64,000 nt of DNA from Marinobacter sp. MDS2 (lineage in GTDB: Bacteria; Pseudomonadota; Gammaproteobacteria; Pseudomonadales; Oleiphilaceae): assembly GCF_030718085.1 (NCBI RefSeq), contig NZ_JAVAJF010000001.1, forward strand, positions 1,922,001 to 1,986,000. Direction: 5' to 3'. Positions within the stretch are counted from its first letter, which is position 1, and each line of letters opens with the position of its first letter. The notes beneath the pieces are model-generated. The model was given only the letters and a program-made list of their open reading frames with translations, was not told the origin of the DNA and ran no database searches. Both the position numbers and the translations under genes were made by a program. Shown here one piece after another: positions 49,959 to 61,637 of the stretch.

Positions 49959-49999
49959 GCTCCGCCGCACCCTCTGTCGGGCGGAATGTCGGCAGAGGG

Positions 50000-50027
50000 T
50001 GTAACAATCTGGCCGGGTGCGCGTCTG
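50000..50027 (+). promoter_or_regulatory. putative ECF promoter A (DUF547 gene)
   Basis: TGTAACA begins at 50000 and CGTCTG is at 50022-50027, with 17 bases between TGTAAC and GTC. The AAC-type -35 and GTC-type -10 are hallmarks of ECF promoters. The element is shared with three other genes nearby (51782, 54401 and 56637). The start codon is 30 bases downstream. A 9-base inverted repeat (49968-49976 and 49993-50001) overlaps the -35. Confidence 0.65.
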
Positions 50028-50057
50028 ATATCTGTGGCTACTATCCGGAGATGCTTT

Positions 50058-50909
50058 ATGCCCGCAAAGAGTCCGTGTTCATCGTGGTTTGTCGCATTGC
50101 TGCTGTTCGCGGTGATGCCGGTGCAGGCCGCTGTGTCTGAAACCGTGTATGCCCCCTTCCAGGCCTTGCTCAACCAATACCTTATCGAACAAACGTTGCC
50201 CGGCAACGGCCTGGTGTCGGCTTTCGATTATTCCAGTGCGGCGGGGGATGCTCGCACTGATGATTTGCTGCGCAAACAGCGGCAGGCGTTGGCCGGCTTT
50301 GATCCGGCCCAGCTCAAAGACCGAGAGGAGTCCGTTGCCTTTTGGATCAACGCCTATAACTTTTTCATGATCGATAAACTCTTGTCTGACCGGCCTGCTG
50401 GTCAATTGGTGTCGTCGGTGTGGGATTACGGAGGGCGAATTAATCCTTTTGTCGATTCGGTGTTCGAGCGCGAAATGTTTAACGTGGGTGGCCGAAGCTT
50501 GAGTCTGGATGGTATCGAGAAAGGGATTTTGCTCAGTGATGATTACAAAGCCAAAGGCTGGAAGGACGCCCGGGTTCACTTCGCGGTGAATTGCGCATCC
50601 ACCGGTTGCCCGCCGCTGCGCAAACAGGTTTACACGGCGCCCAACCTGGACTCTCTGTTGGCCGACAATACCCGCAGAGCGTTGAATACCCCGCGCCATC
50701 TGACGGTGAACTCCGGTGAGCTGTTCGTAACCGAGTTGTTCAACTGGTACGAAGACGATTTTGTGGAAGCGGAGGGCTCTATTCGAGCTTTTATTCTCAA
50801 ATGGGCAGCACCTGCGCGAGCGCAAACAATCAGAGACGCTCGCGGCCTCAGGTTCAGCGACTATGAATGGCTACTCAACCGGCCGAAAAATTTTCCCGAA
50901 CTACAATAA
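50058..50909 (+). CDS. exported DUF547 protein
   Basis: The 283-residue protein starts at ATG 50058, with GGAG seven bases upstream, and has a signal peptide (FVALLLFAVMPVQA). DUF547 is recognisable by SVAFWINAYNFFMIDKLL, the LDGIEKGIL region, and VHFAVNCASTGCPPLR with its conserved His and Cys pair. This suggests a thiol-type hydrolase or transferase, but the family has no firm function. It is preceded by putative ECF promoter A, which links it to the sigma factor gene at 53.7-54.3 kb. It overlaps the convergent YebB-like gene by 9 bases. Confidence 0.88.
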   Translation: MPAKSPCSSWFVALLLFAVMPVQAAVSETVYAPFQALLNQYLIEQTLPGNGLVSAFDYSSAAGDARTDDLLRKQRQALAGFDPAQLKDREESVAFWINAYNFFMIDKLLSDRPAGQLVSSVWDYGGRINPFVDSVFEREMFNVGGRSLSLDGIEKGILLSDDYKAKGWKDARVHFAVNCASTGCPPLRKQVYTAPNLDSLLADNTRRALNTPRHLTVNSGELFVTELFNWYEDDFVEAEGSIRAFILKWAAPARAQTIRDARGLRFSDYEWLLNRPKNFPELQ

Positions 50910-51680
50910 ACCCGGCTCTGATTCGTCTTCGTCCCAGTCCAGAGTCCGGTAATCAAAGTCGGCCATCTCGATCGAGGGTTTGACGATGCGAAAGTACGGC
51001 GAGGCATCAAAGTCTCTCGGTGTGAACAGTGAGTGATGCTTGATCCGATAGCGTTCCCGGATGCAGGTGATGCAATCGGGGTCATCGGCGGGCAGTAATT
51101 CCACGATGGGCAGGATCGGGTATTTCAGGCGTTGGAACGCTTCCGCCAGAAATGTCGAGCAGATCGCCCGTGTCGGGTCGCCGCTGCCAAACGCCAGTAG
51201 TTTGTGCCGGTGGCGGCTGGGTACCGGAGGCGTAGGAAGCAGGTAACGGGCCAGATCGAACACGTTTCTCATGTCGTACTGATGGCCTATGCGGCTTCGG
51301 GCGTAGTCTGTCAGAGTGTGAATGTCGCTGTCAGAGAGCCCCACCGGGCGGCAAATGCGGGTGTGAGCGTGACGGTAGAACGACAGTGGCAACGGTCGGA
51401 TGCCTTGTTCCAGATCGGCCTCGATCAGCGTGTTGGCCTGCCCGTCCTCAGAAGTGCCGAGCCCGGCATGGGGCCCGAGATACAGCGCCGCGTGGGACCA
51501 AGTGGATTGTGTCAGGTACTTGATGGCGACACTGATCCGGGTGTTGCCTTCCACCAACAACACGTCACCGGGCTGCAAAGTGCTTTTCAGGGCTTCCCAG
51601 GTTGAGGTCCGCACCGAGTGCTGAGAAACCGCTTTGGATAAATACGCTGCCAGGCGCCGCGTTAACCACGTCAGTAGCAT
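50901..51680 (-). CDS. YiiX/YebB-like NlpC/P60-superfamily cysteine hydrolase
   Basis: The 259-residue protein has a permuted papain-like fold. LQPGDVLLVEGNTRIS is followed by WSHAALYLG (catalytic His), an EADLEQGIRPLP stretch, and ICSTFLAEAFQRL (nucleophile Cys). Members of this group are proposed amidases or peptidases acting on cell-envelope lipids or peptides. There is no clear signal peptide, although the N-terminus (LLTWLTRRLAAYL) is amphipathic and may sit on the membrane. It lies between two putative ECF-controlled genes but points the other way and lacks the element. Confidence 0.8.
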   Translation of the reverse strand: MLLTWLTRRLAAYLSKAVSQHSVRTSTWEALKSTLQPGDVLLVEGNTRISVAIKYLTQSTWSHAALYLGPHAGLGTSEDGQANTLIEADLEQGIRPLPLSFYRHAHTRICRPVGLSDSDIHTLTDYARSRIGHQYDMRNVFDLARYLLPTPPVPSRHRHKLLAFGSGDPTRAICSTFLAEAFQRLKYPILPIVELLPADDPDCITCIRERYRIKHHSLFTPRDFDASPYFRIVKPSIEMADFDYRTLDWDEDESEPGLL

Positions 51681-51781
51681 AGAACCTCCCGATCACCGTA
51701 CTTTGTTTATTAGTAGCACAGACATCGATGTAAAGCCTGTGTCACGGCCTTCAGCTCCATAGCGAGGTTAATCAAAACGTT

Positions 51782-51809
51782 TGTAACAACCGGGTGGTGT
51801 GGGTGTCTA
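51782..51809 (+). promoter_or_regulatory. putative ECF promoter B (Cys-rich cytochrome gene)
   Basis: TGTAACA begins at 51782 and TGTCTA is at 51804-51809. Spacing from TGTAAC to GTC is 17 bases, as in elements A, C and D. The predicted leader is about 70 bases. Confidence 0.65.
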
Positions 51810-51883
51810 AGCGTTGACCGCTTCTGTGAGCGGTGGCGGACTTTGAGGGTCCGCAAGATAACTCCTGAACGGAGATAAACGTC

Positions 51884-52648
51884 ATGACAACAACACACGT
51901 TCCAACACACGCCATTCGCCACACCAGCCTGAATCGACGCACTGCCTGGTGGTCTGCAGCTTTAATGACGGCCATGCTGAGCTCCGGTGGCGGGCTCGCA
52001 TTTGCGGCTTGCGGTCCTTGCTCCCCATGCAAAGGCAAATGCAAGGCAGGGCAGCATTGCAAGGCAGGCTGCAAAGCGGGGTGTAAACCCTGTGAAGCAA
52101 AGAACCCCTGCGCGGGTAAAAACCCGTGCGCCATGAAGCATCCTTGCGGCACGAAAAAGGGCATGAACGATCCCTGTGCCGGCAAAAACCCCTGCGCGAT
52201 GAAAAACCCTTGTTCGATGAAGAAGAACTGCGCACCGAAAGGCTGCAACCCGTGCGCAGCCGCCGGAAAGTGCGGTGCCAAGCCGAACCCCTGTGCGGCC
52301 AAAAAGGTGACCCGGCCGGAAAACTATCAAGCCTACGAGGGTAATCCCAGTACCTTGGTGGCCTTGGGTGAGAAGTTGTTCAAGGATGCCTCGCTCAGCA
52401 GCAATGGACTGGCCTGCGCCAGCTGTCACAATGATGGTGCCGGCTACAACGCCACCTTCAGCGACGAATACCCGCATCCGGTTGCCATGGCGAAAAACAT
52501 CTTCGGCATGGATCGGGTGCATTTGGACGAAATGGTACAGATCTGCATGGTGCAGCCAATGGCCGCAGAACCTTTGCCCTGGGATAGCCAGGAGCTGGCA
52601 GCGCTGACGGCTTATATGAGCAAGGTCCAGGCCGATCGGGCTAAATAG
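51884..52648 (+). CDS. exported protein with a 19-cysteine repeat region fused to a monohaem cytochrome c domain
   Basis: The 254-residue protein has an N-terminal RR-containing signal peptide cleaved near FAACG (about residue 42). Residues about 43-145 form a low-complexity, lysine- and cysteine-rich region, opening with CGPCSPCKGKC, then HCKAGCKAGCKPC, then repeats of K-N-P-C-A-x-K. I count 19 Cys here. A class I cytochrome c domain follows (about 150-250) with CASCH (178-182) and probable axial Met in a QPMAAEPL-type loop. The repeat could bind soft metal ions or act as a thiol buffer; the domain fusion suggests redox coupling. It is preceded by ECF promoter B and followed by a DUF6969 gene. 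Confidence 0.85.
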   Translation: MTTTHVPTHAIRHTSLNRRTAWWSAALMTAMLSSGGGLAFAACGPCSPCKGKCKAGQHCKAGCKAGCKPCEAKNPCAGKNPCAMKHPCGTKKGMNDPCAGKNPCAMKNPCSMKKNCAPKGCNPCAAAGKCGAKPNPCAAKKVTRPENYQAYEGNPSTLVALGEKLFKDASLSSNGLACASCHNDGAGYNATFSDEYPHPVAMAKNIFGMDRVHLDEMVQICMVQPMAAEPLPWDSQELAALTAYMSKVQADRAK

Positions 52649-52715
52649 TTCACGAGGAAACGAGCGCTGTTGTCACTTGACTAAGGATGGGGGCAGCGCC
52701 TCGAGGAGGCAGCGG

Positions 52716-53468
52716 ATGACCGAAGGTATCCGGATTCCTGAGCTGAGAACCCTGAGCGGCGGCCAGTTGCGCTCGAGTCTTGCTGCAGTCGATGAAATTC
52801 GCGAATGCTACCGCGTACTGAAAAAAGGCGGTTTGAACATTGTGGGTGAGGTGCTCCGCGATCAAGGCCCGTTCTATGAAATGGATCACTACCCGAAAGA
52901 CGATGTATATGACCGAGAAACGGCCTCCCAGTACTACTACCATGCCCATCGGGAAGAGCATTCAGAGCATGGTCATTTCCACCTGTTTCTGCGTAACGGG
53001 GCACTACCGGACAGTGTGGAGCCTGTGTGCGGGCCTACGGGGGAGAACCGGGTAGCGCACCTGGTCGCTATTTCGATGGATGCCTGGGGTTACCCGACCG
53101 ATGTGTTCGCGGTAAACCGCTGGGTTACCGATGAAAGCTGGCTGCCGGCAGAAGCGGTGATCGCCGCTCTGGATCAGTTCGCTATGGATCACGCTCACCC
53201 CAGCTGGCCAGTAAACCGGTGGCTCACAGCGATGGTGCGCTGTTTCAGACCGCAGATCGCGGCCTTGCTGAATCATCGTGATGCACTGGTTGCGGATAGG
53301 CCGGGGCAGTCACTGGAGCAGGTGCTGGAGGATCGTACTTTGGAAATTACGGGCAGTATCGCCATCGATGTCGAGAGTTGGGCCGCCCGACTGAAAGAAG
53401 AGCAATCAAGAAGGTCGGGAAACGATCAGCCTTTTTTGCGAGCTTTAAGTGCTTTAGCGACTCGTTGA
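52716..53468 (+). CDS. DUF6969-type protein
   Basis: The 250-residue soluble protein starts at ATG 52716 with a strong GAGGAGG six bases upstream; the longer frame from 52677 begins with TTG and is less likely. It is rich in His, Tyr and Trp around YYYHAHREEHSEHGHFHLFLR, which may form a metal site, followed by HLVAISMDAWGYPTDVFAVNRWVT. I recognise the DUF6969 pattern, without known function. It is 67 bases after the Cys-rich cytochrome gene, probably in the same transcript. Its last 43 bases overlap the convergent anti-sigma gene. Confidence 0.75.
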   Translation: MTEGIRIPELRTLSGGQLRSSLAAVDEIRECYRVLKKGGLNIVGEVLRDQGPFYEMDHYPKDDVYDRETASQYYYHAHREEHSEHGHFHLFLRNGALPDSVEPVCGPTGENRVAHLVAISMDAWGYPTDVFAVNRWVTDESWLPAEAVIAALDQFAMDHAHPSWPVNRWLTAMVRCFRPQIAALLNHRDALVADRPGQSLEQVLEDRTLEITGSIAIDVESWAARLKEEQSRRSGNDQPFLRALSALATR

Positions 53469-53671
53469 TCGATTTTGCGCATCAGGGCCTCATCCGGTAC
53501 GGATGAAGAGTGGGCTTGCATGAGATCTGTGCTGACACGCAGGTTGCCGATAAAGGATCGGCAATGCCGACACATCATCAGGTGCATTTTTATGGCCAGG
53601 TTCTGCGGCGTGGCCAGCTCACCATCAATGTAATCGCTGGCGATTTCCGCCAGATCTTTGCACATCAGCAT
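53426..53671 (-). CDS. zinc-binding anti-sigma factor (ZAS, zf-HC2)
   Basis: The 81-residue soluble protein has the ZAS signature H30-x3-C34-x2-C37 (in MHLMMCRHC) and an upstream Cys4, the four zinc ligands of redox-sensitive anti-sigma factors. The C-terminus is basic. It has no transmembrane helix, so it senses in the cytoplasm. ATG 53671 has AGGAG eight bases upstream and overlaps the end of the sigma factor gene, so the two are translationally coupled. It probably holds the sigma factor inactive until thiol oxidation or zinc loss (family knowledge). Confidence 0.9.
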   Translation of the reverse strand: MLMCKDLAEIASDYIDGELATPQNLAIKMHLMMCRHCRSFIGNLRVSTDLMQAHSSSVPDEALMRKIDQRVAKALKARKKG

Positions 53672-54285
53672 TCGCCGGACTCCTGAAAGGTTTCCACCAT
53701 CAGAAAGATTTTCTGTCTTGCTCGGTGTAACAGTACTCGCAGGTTAGATGCACTGACGTCCAGAATGTTACAGACATCCTCAGACTTATGCTGGTGGGCT
53801 TCGTACAGCATCAAGGCCGAACGCTGGGTTTCCGGCAAGGCCGACAGGTGCTTGTCGAGGCAATCGCTCAGCGCACCGTTTTCCAGCAAGGTATCCGCGG
53901 ATTCATCAAAACGCAGGCGAGGCGGTTGTTCCCATCGGCGTGAAGCATTGAATCGGTCGGCCAGTTCCGGGTCCAGCGCCTCCGTGAAGTCCGTGGTCAC
54001 TTCCCGCTTGTTGGAGCGGAGCTTGTTTTTGCAGCGATTAGCCACGATTCGGTGCAGCCAGGTTTTTAAGCCGGACCGCCCTTCAAATTTGTGGATAGCG
54101 TCGATCACCGTGACCCAGCAGTCCTGAACAACTTCTTCTGCGCTTGAGGGGTCCAGATAGAAACGGGCAACGGCGAGCATGCCTGAAGAATAGTCGCGCA
54201 CAGCTTTCTCATAGGCGGTGCAGTCGCCTTGTTGGAGGGCTTCAATTAAGGCGTGTTCGGAGTCTTTGTGCACCGCTGTGTCCAT
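53665..54285 (-). CDS. ECF RNA polymerase sigma factor
   Basis: The 206-residue ECF sigma factor has sigma-2 (about 25-95, YLDPSSAEEVVQDCWVTVIDAIHKFEGRS in part) and sigma-4 (about 140-200, LPETQRSALMLYEAHQHKSEDVCNILDVSASNLRVLLHRAR in part). The linker of about 45 residues is longer than usual. It is followed by its ZAS anti-sigma gene. The TGTAACA elements before four neighbouring genes are its likely targets. I do not see that element before the sigma gene itself, so autoregulation is not supported by this window. Confidence 0.92.
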   Translation of the reverse strand: MDTAVHKDSEHALIEALQQGDCTAYEKAVRDYSSGMLAVARFYLDPSSAEEVVQDCWVTVIDAIHKFEGRSGLKTWLHRIVANRCKNKLRSNKREVTTDFTEALDPELADRFNASRRWEQPPRLRFDESADTLLENGALSDCLDKHLSALPETQRSALMLYEAHQHKSEDVCNILDVSASNLRVLLHRARQKIFLMVETFQESGEC

Positions 54286-54400
54286 GAGATTGCGTCCCGG
54301 GGGATGTTCGGCCAGTTTACGGGTCTACTTAATAGTGTTTCGGAACGCAAAAAAGTTCCTGTAATGTGGAACGGCCGAAAAAAGAATAGGGTAGAAAGGG

Positions 54401-54428
54401 TGTAACATCCAGCGGTTGCGCGTGTCAG
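54401..54428 (+). promoter_or_regulatory. putative ECF promoter C (TVP38-reductase gene)
   Basis: TGTAACA begins at 54401 and TGTCAG is at 54423-54428, with 17 bases between TGTAAC and GTC. It lies in the divergent region between the sigma factor gene and the TVP38-reductase gene, 45 bases before the latter's ATG. An inverted repeat GGAAC/GTTCC (54338-54342 and 54351-54355) is nearby. Confidence 0.68.
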
Positions 54429-54472
54429 GTTGGGTAAAGCGCCATCCCCATACACCGTAAACAGGCATACTT

Positions 54473-56629
54473 ATGAATCGACGTAAGCTTTTCCTCCTTT
54501 TGGTCATCGCCGCCATTGTGATGATTTTTATCAGCTTTGACCTGCACCGCTTGCTGACCCTGGAAAACCTGCAACAACACCGGGAGGCGATAGCCGGCTG
54601 GATTGACCAAAACCTGGTTGTGGCGGTCGTGGGCTATGCCGGTGTTTATGTGTTGGTGACGGCTTTGTCCTTACCCGGGGCGGCAATCATGACCCTCGCC
54701 GGCGGTGCGTTTTTTGGCAACCTCTACGGGTTGGCGGCCGTGTCGGTTGCATCAACGGTGGGTGCATCACTGGCGTTTTTGATCGCTCGCTTCCTGCTCC
54801 GGGATACTTTGCGCGGTCGCTATCGGCAGACTGTCGAGAAAATCGATCGAGGCATCGAAAAAGACGGAGCCTTTTATCTGGCCACTTTGCGTCTGGTGCC
54901 GGTGTTCCCGTTCTTTTTGATCAATCTGGCGATGGGTTTAACCGCCATGAAGCTGCGAACCTATGCGTGGGTGAGCTGGCTGGCGATGCTGCCGGGTACC
55001 TTTGTGTATGTGAATGCGGGAACCCAGGTCGGGCAGATCCAATCCACCAGCGATATCCTATCCGGCGAGCTGTTGCTGTCGTTTGCCCTGCTCGCCCTCT
55101 TCCCTTTGTTAGCCAAGTGCCTGGTAGCGTTCCTGCGCAGCCGTAAGGTCTATGCCGGGTGGCAAAAACCGGCACATTTCGACTACAACCTGCTGGTGAT
55201 TGGCGGCGGCGCCGGAGGGCTGGTTTCGGCCTACATCGGTGCGGCGGTCAAGGCCAAAGTCGCGCTGATCGAAAAGCACAAGATGGGGGGCGATTGCCTG
55301 AATACCGGCTGCGTTCCCTCCAAAGCGTTGATTCGCAGCGCCAAAGCGGCCGATACGCTGCGCCATGCTGACCGTTATGGCTTGGAATCGGTGCCGGTAC
55401 AGGCATCGTTTAAACGCATCATGAGCCGGGTTAAAAACATCATTGCGCAAGTTGAACCGCACGATTCGCCAGAGCGCTACCAGCAGCTCGGCGTGGACTG
55501 CATTGCCGGCGAAGCGAGTTTCGTGTCGCCGTGGGAGCTGGAAGTACGCCACAACGATGGTCGTACCGAGCGCCTGACCGCCCGCAGCATTATCGTCGCC
55601 ACTGGCGGTAAACCTGCCTTGCCGCCAATCCCAGGGCTGGATGCCATGGCCCCGCTGACCTCGGACAACCTTTGGGACTTGCAGGAACAACCGCAACGAT
55701 TGTTGGTGCTGGGCGGTGGCCCGATCGGTTCGGAGCTGGCCCATGCCTTTGCCCGGCTGGGCAGCCAAGTTGTGCAAGTCGAGCGCGGGGATCGTTTGCT
55801 GGCGCGAGAAGACGGCGATGTCTCTGCGGTGGTCAAGGCCCAGTTTGAAGCCGACGGCATCGATGTGCGCCTGCAACACGCGGCCGCCGAGTTTTGCGTC
55901 GAAGACGGAGAAAAGGTCGCCTACTGTGATCACAATGGCGAACGGGTGCGTATACCGTTCGATCAAGTGTTGGTGGCGCTGGGCCGCGCAGCCAACACGA
56001 GCGGCCTGAATCTGGAACGGATCGGAGTGGAAACCCTGCCCAATGGCACGGTACCGGTAGACGACGACATGAGCGTGCGCTTCCCCAATATCTATGCCTG
56101 CGGTGATGTGGCCGGCCCCTACCAGTTTACTCATGCCGCCGCCCACCAAGCGTGGTATGCCGCGGTGAACGGATTGTTCGGCCAGTTCAAGCGCTTCCGG
56201 GTGGATTATCGGGTGATGCCGTGGGTCACTTTTACTTCGCCGGAAGTGGCAAGAGTGGGGCTGAGCGAAGCCGAGGCCAAGGCCCAAGGTATCGATTATG
56301 AGGTCACTCGCTATGGCTTGGACGATCTGGACCGGGCTATTGCTGAAAGTGAAGCCCAAGGCTTTATCAAAGTGCTGACGGTGCCCGGAAAAGACAAGAT
56401 TCTGGGGACGGTCGTGGTTGGCTCCCACGGCGCAGAGATTCTGGCGGAGTTCACGCTTGCCATGAAACACGGGTTGGGGCTGAACAAAATTCTGGGCACC
56501 ATTCACCCCTACCCGACCTGGAACGAATCCGCCAAATACGCAGCCGGTGAGTGGAAGCGGGCCCATGCGCCAGACAGGGTTTTGGCGATGTTGTCTAGAC
56601 TGCATGCATGGCGTTTGGGAAAACGTTGA
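54473..56629 (+). CDS. TVP38/DedA-like membrane domain fused to a MerA-like FAD disulfide oxidoreductase
   Basis: This 718-residue fusion has residues about 1-225 as a TVP38/TMEM64 (SNARE-associated) membrane domain, with LPGAAIMTLAGGAFFG and the VPVFPFFLINLAMG stretch. Residues about 235-718 form a class I pyridine nucleotide-disulfide oxidoreductase with FAD motif GGGAGGL (from 244), redox disulfide C275-x4-C280 (GGDCLNTGCVPSK), NAD motif GGGPIGSELAHAFARLG, and the C-terminal HPYPTWNES. It lacks the N-terminal HMA domain and C-terminal vicinal Cys pair of mercuric reductase, so Hg(II) is probably not the substrate. The membrane domain may pass lipid-linked or periplasmic thiols to the reductase (inference). 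It has ECF promoter C. Confidence 0.9.
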   Translation: MNRRKLFLLLVIAAIVMIFISFDLHRLLTLENLQQHREAIAGWIDQNLVVAVVGYAGVYVLVTALSLPGAAIMTLAGGAFFGNLYGLAAVSVASTVGASLAFLIARFLLRDTLRGRYRQTVEKIDRGIEKDGAFYLATLRLVPVFPFFLINLAMGLTAMKLRTYAWVSWLAMLPGTFVYVNAGTQVGQIQSTSDILSGELLLSFALLALFPLLAKCLVAFLRSRKVYAGWQKPAHFDYNLLVIGGGAGGLVSAYIGAAVKAKVALIEKHKMGGDCLNTGCVPSKALIRSAKAADTLRHADRYGLESVPVQASFKRIMSRVKNIIAQVEPHDSPERYQQLGVDCIAGEASFVSPWELEVRHNDGRTERLTARSIIVATGGKPALPPIPGLDAMAPLTSDNLWDLQEQPQRLLVLGGGPIGSELAHAFARLGSQVVQVERGDRLLAREDGDVSAVVKAQFEADGIDVRLQHAAAEFCVEDGEKVAYCDHNGERVRIPFDQVLVALGRAANTSGLNLERIGVETLPNGTVPVDDDMSVRFPNIYACGDVAGPYQFTHAAAHQAWYAAVNGLFGQFKRFRVDYRVMPWVTFTSPEVARVGLSEAEAKAQGIDYEVTRYGLDDLDRAIAESEAQGFIKVLTVPGKDKILGTVVVGSHGAEILAEFTLAMKHGLGLNKILGTIHPYPTWNESAKYAAGEWKRAHAPDRVLAMLSRLHAWRLGKR

Positions 56630-56636
56630 TGGTGCG

Positions 56637-56664
56637 TGTAACAAATCACGGCCGGCTGGGTCTG
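56637..56664 (+). promoter_or_regulatory. putative ECF promoter D (radical SAM gene)
   Basis: TGTAACA begins at 56637 and GGTCTG is at 56659-56664, with 17 bases between TGTAAC and GTC. It lies in the 69-base gap after the TVP38-reductase gene and 35 bases before the radical SAM ATG. Confidence 0.62.
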
Positions 56665-56698
56665 TGTTCAAGATAATTTATAAAAACGAGGAGCAACC

Positions 56699-57670
56699 AT
56701 GCCCCTGACGGAACCTCAGGCACCTAAAGGTGAACGCATTCCTGCGGTGGAGGTGCTGGCGCCCAGAGCCAGAGACAGCTGGACCCATACCCGCAACGGC
56801 GACCCCCGCGGCTACATCGATGCCGACCGGCTGAAGGAGCTGTGGATTCATACCGGCACCGCGTGCAACCTGGCTTGCCCGTTCTGTCTGGAAGGTTCCC
56901 ACCCGGGTGACGGGCGTATTCCGGGCATGAAGCTCAGTGATGTAAAACCGTTCATTCACGAGGCCATCGAGATGGGTGTGGAGCAGTTTTCGTTCACCGG
57001 CGGTGAGCCCTTCGTGATTCGGGACTTCGTCAACACCCTGAACTACGCCAGCCAGCATCGCCCCTGCTTCGTCCTGACCAACGCCACGGAGCCGCTGTTG
57101 AAGCGCAGGCATCAAGTGCTGCCTTTGCTAGATAACCCCTATCCGATTCATTTCCGCGTCAGTCTGGATTTCCCCGACCGCGCTCGGCACGACAAAGACC
57201 GCGGCGACGGCAGTTTCGAGCTGGCGTTGGAAGGCATTCGCTGGCTCATCGAGCAGGGTTTTAAAGTGTCCGTTGCTCGCCAGACCGATCCGGGCGAAGT
57301 GTCGGCAGAGGTGGAGTCGGCGTTCCGTGCCATCTTCCGAGAGCACGATATTCCGGAAGATCTCGCGTTTACCGCTTTTCCCGATTTAGGTGCCCCGGGC
57401 TCGGAAGACGGCAGCCCGGAAATCACCGAAGGTTGCATGGAGAAGTACCCGACGCAGGAATCCCGCGCCCACTTCATGTGCACCTACACTCGGATGCTAG
57501 TGAAAAAAGGCGATCAGGTGCGGGTGTATGCCTGCACTTTGGTGGATGACGATCCGCAATACGATCTGGGTGGCACGCTGGCAGAGAGCATGGACGAGCG
57601 CATCATGTTGCGGCACCACCGGTGTTTTTCCTGTTATCGGTTTGGGGCTAGTTGTTCGGCGCCTGTTTGA
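56699..57670 (+). CDS. radical SAM enzyme with C-terminal auxiliary-cluster cysteines
   Basis: The 323-residue enzyme binds the SAM cluster through C56-x3-C60-x2-C63 (ACNLACPFC). FSFTGGEPF is the GGEP SAM-binding motif. The C-terminus, YACTLVDDDP and then CFSCYRFGASC, has a SPASM/twitch-like set of Cys for a second Fe-S cluster, as in enzymes that modify peptides or small metabolites. A strong GAGGAG precedes the ATG. It has its own putative ECF promoter D, 35 bases upstream. The substrate is unknown; the cysteine-rich exported protein in the same putative regulon is one candidate, but nothing in the sequence proves it. Confidence 0.85.
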   Translation: MPLTEPQAPKGERIPAVEVLAPRARDSWTHTRNGDPRGYIDADRLKELWIHTGTACNLACPFCLEGSHPGDGRIPGMKLSDVKPFIHEAIEMGVEQFSFTGGEPFVIRDFVNTLNYASQHRPCFVLTNATEPLLKRRHQVLPLLDNPYPIHFRVSLDFPDRARHDKDRGDGSFELALEGIRWLIEQGFKVSVARQTDPGEVSAEVESAFRAIFREHDIPEDLAFTAFPDLGAPGSEDGSPEITEGCMEKYPTQESRAHFMCTYTRMLVKKGDQVRVYACTLVDDDPQYDLGGTLAESMDERIMLRHHRCFSCYRFGASCSAPV

Positions 57671-57689
57671 GTTTAGTTTGGGAGTGGTC

Positions 57690-57773
57690 GGCCTTTCGGG
57701 CTGGGGTGGCCCTCCAAAACGAAAATCGTGGATTTTCTAATAGTTTTTGAGGGCCACCCCAGCCCGAAAGGCC
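57690..57773. repeat. long intergenic hairpin 3 (31-base arms)
   Basis: Arms 57690-57720 and 57743-57773 pair with one mismatch, around a loop that contains a smaller palindrome (GAAAATC-GTG-GATTTTC). The 23 bases at 57716-57738 recur exactly, inverted, in hairpin 4 (57853-57875), while the two stems are different. It starts 20 bases after the radical SAM stop codon. Confidence 0.85.
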
Positions 57774-57818
57774 TATTGGACTTCCATATAGGTTCCTTGC
57801 AGACCGTGCCGAAGTACG

Positions 57819-57900
57819 GGGCATCAGTCGGGGGTAGGAGGTCAAAACCATCAGAAAATCCACGATTTTCGTTTTGCCCTCCTACCCCCGACTGATGCCC
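57819..57900. repeat. long intergenic hairpin 4 (30-base arms)
   Basis: Arms 57819-57848 and 57871-57900 pair with one mismatch. The loop core is the reverse complement of that of hairpin 3. Hairpins 3 and 4 thus form an inverted pair 45 bases apart, between the radical SAM gene and the symporter gene. Confidence 0.85.
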
Positions 57901-57939: not shown

Positions 57940-59358
57940 ATGAACGCGACTGAAGGCACCCTGTTCTGGGGATTTCTCGTGGTTTACGGCGTGGTGATGT
58001 ATGCGCTGTCGCCAAAAAGCAAAAACGCCAATTCGTTCTACAAAGGCGCAGATGATCAGGGCAATCCCGTTGGTCAGTGGTCACTAACCGCCAGTATCTT
58101 CATCAGTTGGATCTTTGCAAAATCGGTAACCAACGCAGCCAATCTCGGTGCAAGTTATGGCGTGGTCGGTGGTCTGGCCTATGCCAGCTATTGGCTGTCG
58201 ATCCCGGTGGCCGGTTATGTGATCTACCTGATTCGCACCCAAACCGGCGCACGCAGCCTGCAAGAGTTCCTGACCTCACGATTTGGCCGCTTGGCGAGTC
58301 TCGCCTTTGCTGCCGCCATTCTGATTCGGCTTTATAACGAAATCTGGAGTAATACCGCGGTTGTCGGAGGTTATTTCGGCTTGCCGGGTGACTGGGAGTA
58401 TTACGCCGCAGCGATGCTTTTCACGTTCTTTACTCTGGCCTACAGCCTCAAAGGCGGGCTGCGCTCTTCGATTTTCACCGATGTGATTCAAACCTTTGTT
58501 TTTGTGTTTTTCGTCGGTGCTGTGTTGTTTTTGGTGCTACCAGAAAACAACACTCGGTCGTTGCTGACCAATGGCGAATTTCGGTTAGAAGCCGGTGTGG
58601 ATTTATTGCTGGTGGCGTTGCTGCAAATGTTCAGCTACCCGTTCCACGATCCGGTGCTGACCGATAGAGGCTTCGTCAACAAAGAGAAAACGATGCTTAA
58701 AAGCTTTGTGGTGGCGGGCCTGCTCGGCTTCGTGGCGGTGTTTATCTTCAGCCTGGTGGGGGTTCATGCCCGGTTGCACGGAATTGATTCCATGGGCAAC
58801 GCGCCTGCCGCGGTTGGTCAGTCTTTGGGGCTGGCGGCATTGTTCTTCATGAGTGTGATCATGATGACTTCGGCCGGTTCGACGTTGGATTCTACCTTCA
58901 CATCCCTGGCGAAATCCCTTGCGGTTGATTTACCCCGCTTGATCAAACGGGCCGGTAACAAGCTGCCCAGCATCCGCGTTGGCGCTGTGGTAATGGTGGT
59001 CTTTGCGTTGCTGGGTAACGTGCCCATGTTTGCAGGCACGGACATTCTGAAAGCCACCACCATCTCCGGAACCATGGTGATGGGGCTGGCGCCTGTCTTT
59101 CTATTCTATGGCTTTACCCGCTGGTCGCCGTGGAGTTTCCATTTGAGTTTCTGGACCGGGCTTGGTTTGGGCGTGCTGTTGACCCTCGGCTTGATTCCCC
59201 AGAGTTGGGCGATTGGTGAAGGTAAATACGCTCTGTTGTTGGGCGTCAATGCGTGGGGCATTTTGATTTGCAGCGCAGGGTTCTTTTTGCCGCTTGTCGT
59301 GCGCCGGCTGGCCGGTTTTTGGCTGGCTGGGCGCAAGGACGGTTCTGGTGCCTGGTAG
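57940..59358 (+). CDS. sodium:solute symporter family transporter
   Basis: This protein of about 472 residues has 13 or so helices and the SSS-family fold. Conserved stretches include the helix 1 SWIFAKSVTNAANLG break, a long RTQTGARSLQEFLTSRFG loop, TLAYSLKGGLRSSIFTDVIQ (the SSS signature region), and SAGSTLDSTFTSLAKSLAVD. The start was taken at ATG 57940; the upstream in-frame extension overlaps hairpin 4. The substrate is unknown, with options in the family including organic acids, amino acids and osmolytes. No ECF-type element is seen upstream. Confidence 0.87.
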   Translation: MNATEGTLFWGFLVVYGVVMYALSPKSKNANSFYKGADDQGNPVGQWSLTASIFISWIFAKSVTNAANLGASYGVVGGLAYASYWLSIPVAGYVIYLIRTQTGARSLQEFLTSRFGRLASLAFAAAILIRLYNEIWSNTAVVGGYFGLPGDWEYYAAAMLFTFFTLAYSLKGGLRSSIFTDVIQTFVFVFFVGAVLFLVLPENNTRSLLTNGEFRLEAGVDLLLVALLQMFSYPFHDPVLTDRGFVNKEKTMLKSFVVAGLLGFVAVFIFSLVGVHARLHGIDSMGNAPAAVGQSLGLAALFFMSVIMMTSAGSTLDSTFTSLAKSLAVDLPRLIKRAGNKLPSIRVGAVVMVVFALLGNVPMFAGTDILKATTISGTMVMGLAPVFLFYGFTRWSPWSFHLSFWTGLGLGVLLTLGLIPQSWAIGEGKYALLLGVNAWGILICSAGFFLPLVVRRLAGFWLAGRKDGSGAW

Positions 59359-59577
59359 TAACAAGGGGGCCCATCAGAAGGCGTTCTGGCAATGATGTTT
59401 GGAGCCCTAAAGGTTTTGTTGGTGATTATTTTTTATTGGCGCGATTTTAGTGCTTGGTCTATGTTTGGTGTTAGAGGGGCGAAATTCGGCTGATTGCCTG
59501 CGCTGCAGTGCTTTTGGCGGTGTTTGGTTCGGGTTTTGACCCTTGTGATCGCACGGTAGGGCGCGATTAAAAACAGG
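59359..59577. other. gene-free region upstream of the ectoine operon
   Basis: This stretch has no coding signal. It is T-rich (59414-59460 includes TTATTTTTTATTG) and could be a binding region for nucleoid or osmotic regulators. The recognised operator-like repeat and promoter of ectA follow immediately downstream (59578-59644). Confidence 0.4.
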
Positions 59578-59623
59578 ATTTCAAGAGACAGCCTGTGGGT
59601 AAATTGGGGCTTTCTCTTGAAAT
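59578..59623. promoter_or_regulatory. operator-like inverted repeat at the ectA promoter
   Basis: An exact 11-base inverted repeat, ATTTCAAGAGA (59578-59588) and TCTCTTGAAAT (59613-59623), has its right arm overlapping the -35 hexamer of the ectA promoter. The arms are 35 bases apart, about 3.3 helical turns. It may bind a dimeric regulator of osmotic induction. No ectR-like gene is in the window. Confidence 0.55.
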
Positions 59624-59644
59624 ATATTTCGTGCTCTATATAAT
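59617..59644 (+). promoter_or_regulatory. sigma-70 promoter of the ectA-ectB-ask operon
   Basis: TTGAAA (59617-59622) and a perfect -10 TATAAT (59639-59644) are 16 bases apart. Transcription would begin near 59651, leaving a leader of about 27 bases to ATG 59678. Confidence 0.72.
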
Positions 59645-59677
59645 TTATGCCTAAATTTTGACGTGAAACGACAAAAC

Positions 59678-60193
59678 ATGACCTCAGAAGGATCGAATAC
59701 CACCGCCATTACCTTGCGTACACCGACCAAGGATGATGGCTTCAGGCTCCACCAGTTGGTGGCGGAATGTCCTCCGCTGGACCCCAACTCGATTTACTGC
59801 AACCTCCTGCAGTGCAGCCATTTTGCCGAAACCGGCGTGGCCGCGGAGAAAGACGGCGATTTGGTCGGCTTTATCTCCGGATACATCCCTCCCCAACAGC
59901 CCGAAACAGTATTTGTCTGGCAGGTGGCCGTGCACGAGAAAGGTCGTGGACAAGGCTTGGCCAAGCGGATGCTGAAAGAAATCGTGGGCCGTGACGCGTG
60001 TAAGGGCGTTACTCATATGGAAACCACGATTACGGAAGACAACGACGCTTCCTGGGCTTTGTTCCGCTCGTTCGCCCGTGACCTAGGTGCAGAGCTCACC
60101 TACCACGAGCACTTCGAGAAAGGCACCCATTTTGGTGGCAAGCACGATTCTGAGTTCTTGCTGCGCATCGGACCCTTTACGAAGCCTGTCTGA
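59678..60193 (+). CDS. ectA: L-2,4-diaminobutyrate acetyltransferase EctA
   Basis: The 171-residue GNAT acetyltransferase forms N-gamma-acetyl-diaminobutyrate, the second step of ectoine synthesis. Family landmarks are CPPLDPNSIYCNLLQCSHFAET in part, the acetyl-CoA loop HEKGRGQGLAKRML, and FEKGTHFGGKHDSEFLLR near the end. ATG 59678 is preferred given the predicted transcription start near 59651; GTG 59663 is in frame upstream, and neither has a strong ribosome site. It is the first gene of the ect operon, with ectB 175 bases downstream. Confidence 0.95.
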   Translation: MTSEGSNTTAITLRTPTKDDGFRLHQLVAECPPLDPNSIYCNLLQCSHFAETGVAAEKDGDLVGFISGYIPPQQPETVFVWQVAVHEKGRGQGLAKRMLKEIVGRDACKGVTHMETTITEDNDASWALFRSFARDLGAELTYHEHFEKGTHFGGKHDSEFLLRIGPFTKPV

Positions 60194-60368
60194 GAGCTCT
60201 GATTCACAGCTAGTGAATTATTGACCGCGATTTTATACAGCCCGGGCCGCCCGAGGTGGGCCTGTTATGTGGCTGAAATAAACGCCCGGTAGGTTTGTTG
60301 CGACCGACACGTTTTACCAGCAAACCGCCGAGCACAACCTCGAACCTACTATGCTAAGAGGCAAGACA

Positions 60369-61637
60369 ATGGAAATTTTTAAGTCTACTGAATCCGAAGT
60401 ACGTGTTTATTCCCGCGCCTTTCCGGTGGTTTTTAACCGCGCCAAGAACGCGCATTTGTACACCGAAGACGGCAAGCAGTACTTGGACTTTCTGGCCGGT
60501 GCCGGTTCACTGAACTATGGCCACAACAACGATACCCTCAAGAAAGCGCTGCTCGAGTACATCGAAGCAGACGGCGTGAGCCAGGGCCTGGACCTGTTCA
60601 CCACTGCCAAGCAGGACTTCATGGAGTCCTACAAGAAGAACATCCTTCAGCCCCGTGGCTTGAACTACAAAATGCAGTTTACTGGCCCGACCGGTACCAA
60701 CTGTGTAGAAGCTGCCATGAAGCTGGCGCGTAAGGTGAAAGGTCGTACCAACATTATCTCTTTCACCAACGGTTTCCACGGTGTGACCACCGGCGCTGTA
60801 GCGGCTACCGGTAACAAGCATCACCGTGGTGGTGTGGGCATGCCGCTGGGCAATGTTGATTTCATGTTCTATGACGGCTATCTGGGTGAAAATGTGGATT
60901 CCCTGGCTATCATGGACAAGGTGCTGTCAGACAGCTCTTCGGGCATCGAAACTCCGGCTGCGGTAATCGTGGAAGCGGTTCAGGGTGAAGGTGGTTTGAA
61001 CGCCGCCCGTGCTGAGTGGTTGAAAGGTTTGTCAGAGCTGTGCGAGAAGCACGACATTCTGTTGATTCTGGACGATATCCAGGCAGGTAATGGCCGTACT
61101 GGCGAGTTCTTCAGCTTTGAATTTGCCGGCATCAAGCCGGACATCGTCACCGTTTCCAAGTCCCTGAGTGGCTACGGCCTGCCGATGGCGTTGGTACTGT
61201 TCAAGCCAGAGTTGGATATCTGGGAATCCGGTGAGCACAACGGTACCTTCCGTGGTAACAACATGGCCTTCGTTACCGCCCGCGCCGCCATTGATACTTA
61301 CTGGAAAGACGATGCCTTTGCCGACTCGGTGAAAGCCAAGGCGAAAGTGCTGGGTGATGAGCTTCAGGCTATCTGTGACCGTTATCCCGGTGAGTTCAAG
61401 GTGAAAGGTCGCGGTCTGATGCGTGGTATTGAAGCTGCGAATGCCGATGTCACTGGCCCGATCACCCAGCTGGCGTTCGAGAAAGGTCTGATCATCGAAA
61501 CCAGTGGTCCGAACGACGAAGTGATCAAGTGCCTGATGCCGCTGACCACCAGTGAAGACGATCTGCGCCGTGGTGCCCAGCTGCTGGGTGAAAGTGTCGA
61601 TGAAATCATGCAGAAGGGAATCAGCGAGGCGTCTTAA
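60369..61637 (+). CDS. ectB: diaminobutyrate--2-oxoglutarate aminotransferase EctB
   Basis: The 422-residue class III PLP aminotransferase converts aspartate semialdehyde to diaminobutyrate. EctB landmarks include [33 protein letters not shown], the D-x-x-Q PLP contact ([14 protein letters not shown]) and the Schiff-base lysine in [10 protein letters not shown] (K264). ATG 60369 has AGAGG eight bases upstream. In most ectoine clusters ectC comes next; here the aspartokinase follows after 49 bases. The 175-base gap before it shows no clear second promoter. Confidence 0.96.

Follow-up and report, generated by a model that had tools for sequence, protein, structure and literature searches.

The ECF16 sigma factors, namely Caulobacter SigF, Bradyrhizobium EcfF and Brucella BcrS, are described as recognizing a -35 element TGTAAC or GTAAC at a spacing of N14-17, and their targets in Caulobacter include DUF692, DUF2282, DUF2063, DoxX and YedY(MsrP)-type genes (PMC3511200, PMC3420878, PMC8315932). 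In two further systems, RpoE2-HrsE of Haemophilus and SigE-MseR of Neisseria, an ECF sigma factor is paired with a small ZAS anti-sigma factor and controls msr genes and a DoxX-type operon, RpoE2 responding to HOCl and oxidants (PMC7907618, PMC3240639). In the SigH-RshA system of Corynebacterium glutamicum, a SigH-controlled promoter within the sigma coding region is reported to drive the anti-sigma gene alone (PMC3489674).

The locus considered here belongs to a 64,000-nucleotide stretch of the Marinobacter sp. MDS2 genome, the whole of which is called the window, and resembles each of these systems in part. It has the -35 of ECF16, whose kinds of target are also found before relatives of the window's sigma/anti-sigma pair. 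However, the -10 described for ECF16 is CGAA, whereas that of the window is GTC followed by TG, TA, AG or TG, and the anti-sigma factor described for Caulobacter and Bradyrhizobium is a DUF1109 membrane protein, whereas that of the window is an 81-aa zf-HC2 ZAS protein; neither of these two ECF16 features is thus present. Judged by published description, RpoE2-HrsE and SigE-MseR share the combination of an ECF factor with a small ZAS, but unlike in those systems no msr gene was found among ten scanned window genes. SigH-RshA is likewise comparable by description: in the window a promoter-like element, one mismatch away from the consensus, lies inside the sigma coding region, although it coincides with region 4 codons and is apparently maintained by codon choice. 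Finally, distant ECF-ZAS pairs flank ArsS in ArsM-ArsS clusters, some of which hold a TVP38-reductase or DUF547 gene, whereas the window's genome has neither ArsS nor an ArsM-like enzyme. Among the literature matches listed (titles and abstract openings), none concerned this ECF-ZAS family or DUF547-TVP38-radical SAM clusters with an ECF factor, and C. glutamicum sigH was the only ECF sigma gene for which they mentioned a conserved internal promoter. The explanation that best accounts for the locus, and a very probable one, is that one dedicated promoter, TGTAACA-N16-GTC, placed before putative envelope-protection genes, is recognized by an ECF sigma factor under ZAS control.

The locus and its predicted promoters

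Domain searches agreed with the gene identities of a preliminary description of this DNA (DUF547, cytochrome, DUF6969, TVP38-reductase, radical SAM, ECF sigma and zf-HC2 anti-sigma; Table 1). The sigma factor matched PF04542 and PF08281, passed TIGR02937 (74.2 bits, cut-off 42.9) and contains sigma2 and sigma4 domains only, the domain content of an ECF factor. The anti-sigma gene follows, overlapping the sigma gene at 53665-53671, and the residues C4-X25-H30-X3-C34-X2-C37, read from the sequence, agree with the published ZAS motif C/H-X23-26-H-X3-C-X2-C (PMC7907618); no membrane segment was seen in the 81 residues. The reductase part of the TVP38 fusion reached 374 bits against mercuric reductase MerA (TIGR02053), under the cut-off of 454.45, and MerA identity was rejected. 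Membership of the Rv1681 family (NF049973) was also rejected for the radical SAM enzyme (100.7 bits, cut-off 380), which nevertheless scored higher with this family than with ArsS and whose Cys set is invariant across 23 sequences. The Cys-rich cytochrome has 681 homologues, its gene probably forms one unit with the DUF6969 gene, and neither DUF6969 nor DUF547 had matches in PHROGs.

Table 1. Coordinates of genes and predicted promoter elements, in window positions
Feature	Position	Strand	Evidence
Promoter 1, TGTAACA-N16-GTC, before DUF547 gene	50000..50025	+	exact match; predicted
Secreted DUF547 protein	50058..50909	+	PF04784 1.5e-25
C92 permuted papain-like amidase (YaeF/YiiX type)	50901..51680	-	PF05708
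Degenerate promoter, CGTGACA-N16-GTC, before C92	51721..51746	-	two mismatches, 40 nt upstream; predicted
Promoter 2, before Cys-rich cytochrome	51782..51807	+	exact match; predicted
Secreted Cys-rich protein with SoxA/TsdA-type cytochrome c domain, Cys-rich N-terminus	51884..52648	+	PF21342 1.4e-9
DUF6969 protein	52716..53468	+	PF22308 1.5e-82
ZAS anti-sigma factor, 81 aa	53426..53671	-	zf-HC2 3.6e-9; NF052368 above cut-off
ECF sigma factor, 206 aa	53665..54285	-	Sigma70_r2 and r4_2
Promoter-like element in sigma CDS (region 4 codons), before anti-sigma gene	53747..53772	-	one mismatch
Promoter 3, before TVP38-reductase	54401..54426	+	exact match; predicted
VTT (TVP38) membrane domain fused to pyridine-nucleotide disulphide reductase (CLNTGC)	54473..56629	+	PF09335, PF07992, PF02852
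Promoter 4, before radical SAM gene	56637..56662	+	exact match; predicted
Radical SAM enzyme (CNLACPFC, conserved C-terminal Cys set)	56699..57670	+	PF04055

A scan of both strands of the window found TGTAACA-N16-GTC without mismatch at 50000, 51782, 54401 and 56637, all on the plus strand within 50000-56662, and no further exact match anywhere on either strand. These are exactly the four sites of the preliminary description, which had placed GTC 17 bases after TGTAAC, followed by T or A and then A or G, as the dinucleotides TG, TA, AG and TG bear out, and had seen no other plus-strand site with such spacing. The consensus can be written in two ways, TGTAACA-N16-GTC being identical to TGTAAC-N17-GTC, and T often comes next after GTC. 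The gaps from GTC to ATG are 32, 76, 46 and 36 nt (starts 50058, 51884, 54473 and 56699); of the good ribosome sites proposed in the preliminary description, three were recognized by eye, that before 54473 being weak.

The proposed whole-genome scan gave a divided answer. The bare motif is unenriched, because only six exact sites occur against eight for the reversed pattern; core sites (TGTAAC-N17-GTC) with at most one mismatch fall below their control (384 against 999), sites with one or two mismatches likewise show no enrichment, and genome-wide enrichment was rejected. Such counts are what four chance matches might look like, but four of the six exact sites are clustered within 6.7 kb (crude chance ~6e-7), all of them before genes and kept at orthologous positions, and coincidence is thus extremely improbable. 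The two short blocks could instead form the operator of an activator or repressor accompanied by a housekeeping promoter, but TGTAAC and GTC make no palindrome, the fixed N16 and the 32-76 nt to start codons fit a -35/-10 pair, and TGTAAC is the -35 deduced at mapped ECF16 start sites, as these are described (PMC8315932, PMC3420878), which leaves the operator a very slight chance.

The fifth exact site, on another contig before a gene for a 50-aa secreted peptide, is a probable fifth promoter. Therefore, the regulon, pictured earlier as local, is concentrated in the four sites of the locus but is probably not confined to it. The sixth (C3:55336) was rejected as a promoter, since it runs antisense inside an ORF that by eye is DnaA/Hda-like. 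Four more core sites exist in the genome (L009-L012), and that of L009 sits between long frames. The other-contig site, the degenerate C92 site (51746-51721 in its reading direction) and the one-mismatch site inside the sigma gene were absent from the first reading.

Conservation of the element and its link to the sigma factor

Across the loci of 80 relatives, the N16 spacing gave 136 matches (with L078 counted although it lacks the TVP38 start) and other spacings 0-5, except N8 with 42, a peak accounted for by sigma-gene codons; the highest spacing peak of eight control word pairs was 35. Two exact 'PEBP' sites in this survey seem to stem from genes truncated where the locus ends. Altogether 145 of 164 distinct sites precede one of 12 recurring gene families, the families being picked by script and 20 of the 100 underlying stretches being chosen partly for their sites. 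The expectation that the element would be conserved upstream of orthologues is thus borne out, most clearly at the TVP38-reductase, the steadiest target, where 51 of 55 sigma-bearing genomes have a core site upstream, as against 11 of 22 sigma-less ones (Fisher 7e-5, kinship ignored). For C92 the corresponding counts are 17/27 and 0/8 loci, and for DUF547 a core site was found in 7 of the 10 sigma-bearing relatives having the gene. The sites before the radical SAM gene (14/57 with and 4/23 without sigma) and the cytochrome (3/14 with sigma) are poorly conserved. The negative controls PEBP (0/36), SSF (0/74) and DUF6969 (0/13) had no core site upstream. Hits starting after residue 40 or with <120 nt upstream were omitted, and the per-gene totals are therefore smaller (cytochrome 14 instead of 28, DUF547 10 instead of 12). 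Exact sites at all four genes occur only in L067 and L068 among the 80 loci, and further species add other targets, among them C92, a TTL/PqqD protein, DUF3179 and glutaredoxin; the proposal that the four genes form one system accordingly survives as a regulon under the neighbouring ECF-ZAS pair, but not as a constant set.

Of the 36 further genomes compared within the genus, 27 contain a match to the sigma factor at E<=1e-20. The pair is also carried by M. algicola DG893 (locus L126). In total, 113 sites were counted in 21 genomes with it and 6 in 5 genomes without it (Mann-Whitney 9e-4; genomes hand-picked), the reversed pattern giving 252 and 53 in the same sets. When sigma loss and motif loss were compared in ten independent pairs, a mean of 3.0 agreed, 0.1 disagreed and 6.9 showed no difference, which is the expected direction but is not significant. 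The trees cover 77 of the 80 loci, and L104, which holds a sigma fragment, was scored as sigma-less. Both this result and the intact core site that 11 of 22 sigma-less genomes retain before the TVP38-reductase would suit promoters of another sigma factor common to Marinobacter, with the neighbouring ECF gene merely a frequent companion. On the tree, however, sigma presence changes 14 times, 10 of them forced by supported branches, so that many losses look recent, and some absences may be gaps, because 5 of these 22 genomes are metagenome-assembled. Given also the scarcity of sites where the sigma gene is missing and the presence of the element in the sigma factor's own neighbourhood in other families (all ten ArsS-type loci), a different sigma factor is improbable.

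The sigma gene itself is preceded by a core site in none of 50 loci, and autoregulation by that route was rejected; TATAAC-N17-GTC stands before it in six loci.

Relatives of the pair in other families

Outside the family, 21 distant sigma loci were compared, and in ten of them the ECF-ZAS pair flanks ArsS, next to an 'arsenosugar' cluster that is divergently oriented. All ten sigma-ArsS intergenic regions, which had been inspected before the match test was run, contain the element at N17 within one mismatch (shuffles 2.6% per region), while at any other spacing between 12 and 22 no more than one region matches; only two matches are exact, and most read ATC or CTC instead of GTC. Glycosyltransferases like TIGR04283 and TIGR04282 are both present in eight of these loci, one of them in another, and one locus is cut by a contig end; two loci carry the TVP38-reductase fusion and two DUF547 (L228 confirmed). 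The window's fusion is 59% identical to that of an ArsS cluster, and its DUF547 protein 31% identical to a DUF547 of such a cluster. Elsewhere, the element precedes bufferin/MNIO and MsrPQ operons, and it lies 62-87 nt before Cys-bearing precursor genes in L264, L266, L273 and L274 and also precedes that of L270. Among the 21 distant loci, no recognised target was found in L227, L229, L230, L260 and L265, and in L259 targets are present but the element was not found.

Within the genus, ArsS (TIGR04167) is absent from all 37 genomes, the window's included; an ArsM-like enzyme was found in 2/37 at E<=1e-40 and not in the window's genome, and a TIGR04283-like match occurs in one of 100 stretches from relatives (L106). 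The chemistry, earlier called undescribed, is thus not wholly so, because TVP38-reductase and DUF547 occur in some arsenosugar-type ArsS clusters, although the lack of ArsS and an ArsM-like enzyme here sets the window apart.

As sequence patterns, the element with its constant spacing, its position upstream of targets and its recurrence with the sigma family in other gammaproteobacterial families are plain, and a regulon governed by the neighbouring ECF-ZAS pair is supported by the fixed spacing, the link to sigma presence and the same element at the same sigma family elsewhere. Zinc-thiol chemistry in the anti-sigma factor (C-X25-H-X3-C-X2-C) would release the sigma factor under metal/metalloid, disulphide or hypochlorite-type stress, and the holoenzyme would then transcribe the envelope-protection genes: the TVP38 fusion (a putative membrane disulphide reductase), DUF547, the Cys-rich cytochrome with DUF6969 and the radical SAM enzyme, as well as, weakly, the C92 amidase and, elsewhere in the genome, the 50-aa secreted peptide. 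Metal or thiol/oxidant stress as the signal, and a corresponding role in the envelope, would fit, since bufferin-type and MsrPQ operons are preceded by relatives of the pair.

The element inside the sigma gene

The close copy within the sigma gene lies ~75 nt before the anti-sigma gene, and in Marinobacter its codons are among the most synonymously constrained. Such a copy, in constrained codons, appears to be new. Specifically, the frozen codons include those writing TGTAACA and TC-T at promoter spacing, with the Cys codon TGT, a minority codon (38%), in 50/50 genes and the Ser codon TCT (7% codon usage) in 44/49. In other families, 19/19 Cys codons are TGT. Against this, other Marinobacter codons are equally frozen, both beside the anti-sigma start (E205, Q201, E202) and far from it (E152, 49/50). 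Sigma genes of other families favour neither Asn codon (AAC 7, AAT 5) and in eight cases have TGTAAG, an exact core match occurs in only 4/21 of them, the uniformity of T75 comes close to that of S180 (p 1.0e-3 and 9.5e-4), and L249, a more distant sigma factor with the same peptide, uses TGC; the uniformity test omits L265 (no C-N motif) and L266 (no open frame, the match having one stop codon). Synonymous constraint on the element is strong in Marinobacter and mixed elsewhere. TGT-AAC-ATT...TCT may have been fixed with no promoter involved, through biased codon usage, the structure of the mRNA, constraint on the protein or the anti-sigma overlap, a reading with an appreciable chance, somewhat below even, to which the promoter spelling of the Marinobacter codons, the rarity of TGT and TCT and the uniform TGT elsewhere are opposed.

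If the copy is a promoter, it would make extra anti-sigma factor and damp the response. The fuller proposal, tentative but with a nearly even chance, is that the DNA for the region with which the sigma factor reads the -35 is itself a promoter for that factor, its codons held by selection (clearly in Marinobacter, partly across gammaproteobacterial families), from which the sigma factor would transcribe the anti-sigma gene alone and so shut itself off; the same family, with one promoter code, would command both ArsS organoarsenical clusters, of which the Marinobacter loci would be an offshoot lacking ArsS, and copper/hypochlorite defence by bufferin/MNIO or MsrPQ.

The comparison supplies a testable promoter code for an ECF-ZAS family and names uncharacterized proteins that would be regulated together (DUF547, DUF6969, C92, TTL/PqqD, DUF3179 and the 50-aa peptide). 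Arsenosugar-type clusters would be linked to regulators commanding copper-binding bufferins and periplasmic methionine repair, two chemistries (ArsS-type organoarsenical, and bufferin/MNIO or MsrPQ copper/hypochlorite defence) that are treated apart in the cited literature as far as its descriptions go. If the internal element works, the DNA-reading segment of the protein and its own target DNA would share the same bases, as a feedback design.

The motif in its own genome and across Marinobacter

An exact search of both strands for TGTAACA-N16-GTC (the core TGTAAC-N17-GTC has the same spacing) confirms the motif shared by the four units and finds, as the preliminary description did for the plus strand, four sites and no others in the window. 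The complete genome (3.45 Mb, 10 contigs) contains six exact sites and eight of the reversed pattern, and the motif alone is therefore common noise; the genome-wide scan that had been proposed as a check thus finds the bare motif no commoner than its control, but four of the six sites are packed into 6.7 kb (crude chance 6e-7). One of the two extra sites was rejected as a promoter, being antisense within a DnaA/Hda-like reading frame. The second, on contig 5, lies upstream of a 50-codon reading frame with the look of a signal peptide and is probably a fifth promoter. The secreted peptide has the core MDGHADRVNEAKTFPNKT; a matching site and peptide exist in Marinobacter litoralis CARE-V18 (L217), and relatives of the peptide, found in 6 of 100 examined stretches with L217 counted in, include some from around the locus in other species.

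Coordinates of the sites and features discussed (window positions unless a locus or contig is named)
Feature	Position	Strand	Remark
Exact motif sites	50000, 51782, 54401, 56637	+	
Fifth site	G000:C5:64015-64040 (L231:9016)		exact motif before 50-aa peptide; own genome, contig 5
Relative of 50-aa peptide	L217:3483-3334		Marinobacter litoralis CARE-V18
Element in sigma coding sequence	53772-53747	-	reads TGTAACATTCTGGACGTCAGTGCATC, one mismatch from motif
Cys-rich part of cytochrome	51989-52310		
Long inverted repeats	57680-57890		
SSF-type symporter and following frames	57940-61637		
TTL/PqqD protein	L129:141-2621		
ArsM-like frame	L207:13508-13804		M. iranensis

A scan with the radical SAM protein of the window provided 80 loci (the best 80 of 95), nearly all from Marinobacter. 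Over these loci (1.60 Mb) TGTAACA and GTC are separated by N16 136 times and by each other distance from N9 to N25 0-5 times; the 42 occurrences at N8 trace to a valine codon within the sigma gene, and eight control word pairs reach a peak of 35 at most. The core is intact before the TVP38-reductase gene in 51/55 loci from genomes with a sigma orthologue vs 11/22 from those without (Fisher 7e-5, kinship ignored), with corresponding figures of 17/27 vs 0/8 for the C92 amidase and 14/57 vs 4/23 for the radical SAM gene. In loci with sigma it precedes DUF547 in 7/10 and the Cys-rich cytochrome gene in 3/14, and no core site lies upstream of the control genes PEBP (0/36), SSF (0/74) and DUF6969 (0/13). 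Comparison with relatives therefore bears out the fixed spacing and a well-kept TVP38-reductase site, but not a general retention at the radical SAM and cytochrome genes.

Absence of sigma was tested genome-wide at the protein level for 31 loci without sigma nearby, and 8 of those genomes carry it elsewhere; 5 of the 22 sigma-less genomes are metagenome-assembled. On the tree, sigma presence requires 14 changes (10 forced by supported branches), and an independent-pairs test of sigma against site has the expected direction and is not significant. In 26 genomes hand-picked by the analyst, there are 113 sites in 21 with sigma and 6 in five without, the reversed pattern giving 252 and 53.

Membership of the probable regulon

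The 100 stretches, of which 20 were selected in part for their sites, contain 164 distinct exact sites, and 145 of these precede one of 12 recurring, script-assigned gene families: TVP38-reductase (55), C92 (17), radical SAM (16), an ~800-aa TTL ATP-grasp/PqqD protein (14), DUF547 (13), Cys-rich cytochrome (6), DUF3179 (6), GGDEF-EAL (5), anti-sigma (5, each inside the sigma gene), secreted glutaredoxin (4), NrtS-like (2) and YHS (2). Exact sites at all four window genes together occur in 2 of the 80 loci (L067 and L068). Membership is fluid between species: the reading of the units as an ECF sigma regulon is strongly supported at the sequence level, but the four genes of the window are no more than its local form, and the regulon as a whole is wider and changes its members.

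The ~800-aa protein, with perfect sites upstream in 11 stretches (L129, L108, L115, L124 and others), combines an ATP-grasp of TTL type with a PqqD match that is weak and does not reach the cut-off and with an extended C-terminal part, and is possibly a peptide-ligase or RiPP-like system. In M. iranensis an ArsM-like methyltransferase frame follows a perfect site and is prematurely terminated after 99 codons; some of its relatives are longer. DUF547 (28-29% identity) lies between the TVP38-reductase and radical SAM genes in L131 and L134 and precedes the radical SAM gene in L143, where no TVP38-reductase fusion was found, and may therefore have entered the locus more than once. In the window, the Cys-rich part of the cytochrome has NPCA(M/G)K-type repeats that by eye resemble bufferin-like metal-binding repeats, and no MNIO gene was found among ten neighbouring genes scanned. 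Long inverted repeats (by eye) separate the radical SAM gene from the SSF-type symporter gene, which is followed by frames resembling ectoine synthesis genes by eye (acetyltransferase, aminotransferase).

A promoter-like element inside the sigma gene

The most interesting further feature is an element resembling the promoter within the sigma coding sequence itself, 75 nt upstream of the anti-sigma start. It spans codons C172-N173-I174...S180, within the Pfam region 4 match (residues 141-193), the part of sigma that reads the -35. Codon choice was compared over 118 codons with a conserved residue in 50 distinct sigma genes, the window's own and those of 49 loci. C172 is TGT in 50/50, N173 AAC in 49/50, I174 ATT in 47/49, V177 GTC in 42/46 and S180 TCT in 44/49, whereas neighbouring genes use TGT, GTC and TCT for these residues at 38%, 17% and 7%; E205, Q201, E202 and E152 are equally frozen.

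A four-sequence sigma alignment searched against 369 class genomes matched 28 at E<=1e-30 and 18, own included, at E<=1e-53; the 17 others, with four loci from an earlier search with the sigma, make up 21 distant loci. Here the Cys codon at the element is TGT in 19/19, and the mean mismatch is 1.14 vs 3.02 for synonymous draws. Codon uniformity over 64 conserved columns, uncorrected, ranks C172 first (p<=5e-5, the simulation floor), followed by S180 (9.5e-4) and then by T75 (1.0e-3), which lies outside the element. The -10 end falls 73-81 nt before the anti-sigma start in 14/21 loci, those a script could place. The exact core lies inside only 4/21 genes; the Asn codon is AAC in seven and AAT in five, eight have TGTAAG, L230 has serine at the element, L265 is without the segment, and L249, a more distant sigma, has TGC, not TGT. 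The codon evidence for this candidate promoter is accordingly strong in Marinobacter, with a mixed picture outside. The joint reading, that region-4 DNA would serve as sigma's own promoter for the anti-sigma gene and that one code would govern two chemistries, was lowered by the codon recount and is now a tentative proposal, somewhat short of an even chance. The internal-promoter logic has a precedent in SigH-RshA of C. glutamicum (PMC3489674).

The sigma family outside Marinobacter and its proposed function

In 10/21 distant loci an ArsS cluster adjoins the sigma-anti-sigma pair in divergent orientation, and eight of the ten have both TIGR04283- and TIGR04282-like glycosyltransferases; cluster names exceed NCBIfam cut-offs for L228 and rest on 55-63% ArsS identity to L228 elsewhere. 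DUF547 is the first divergent gene in L262, followed by ArsS, and L228 (59% identical to the window copy) and L269 also have the TVP38-reductase. In L259 the genes for TVP38-reductase, a radical SAM enzyme of the window type (60%) and an ArsM-like methyltransferase are consecutive, with no promoter site. In all ten sigma-ArsS divergent regions, which were inspected before testing and with the L228 ArsS start taken at an inner Met, the best cluster-facing match departs from TGTAAC-N17-GTC at no more than one base (two are exact, the others mostly have ATC or CTC for GTC); shuffled regions reach this at 2.6% per region, and each other spacing from 12 to 22 in at most one of ten. In L264, L266 and L270 exact core sites stand upstream of small precursors that contain Cys, and MNIO genes (PF05114) come next; further downstream, Pfam identifies DUF2063 and DoxX in L264, and inspection by eye suggests DoxX in L266 and DUF2063 in L266 and L270. 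In L273 and L274 such sites precede EGKCG-repeat proteins, accompanied by MsrPQ, which exceeds NCBIfam cut-offs in L274, and by a protein that by eye is DoxX-like. L227, L229, L230, L260 and L265 showed no recognised target.

The radical SAM enzyme of the window has 5593 homologues and reaches the cut-off of none of the 25 families listed of 35 matched; across 23 sequences its CX3CX2C is invariant and a set of C-terminal Cys residues is conserved. In arsenosugar synthesis, arsenic is adenosylated by a radical SAM enzyme, named ArsS in the cited title (PMC12159101); neither ArsS nor an ArsM-like enzyme was found in the own genome, and such synthesis is therefore not claimed for it. Bufferins bind surplus metal by chelation when cells are under copper stress (PMC12452194). 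ECF16 factors also target bufferin-type and MsrPQ kinds of gene and share the -35 seen here, but have CGAA as -10 (PMC3511200, PMC3420878, PMC8315932). Because the anti-sigma carries the ZAS motif (as defined in PMC7907618), and relatives of the pair precede bufferin-type operons and MsrPQ or neighbour ArsS, we infer that the regulon may respond to metal/metalloid or thiol-oxidant stress.
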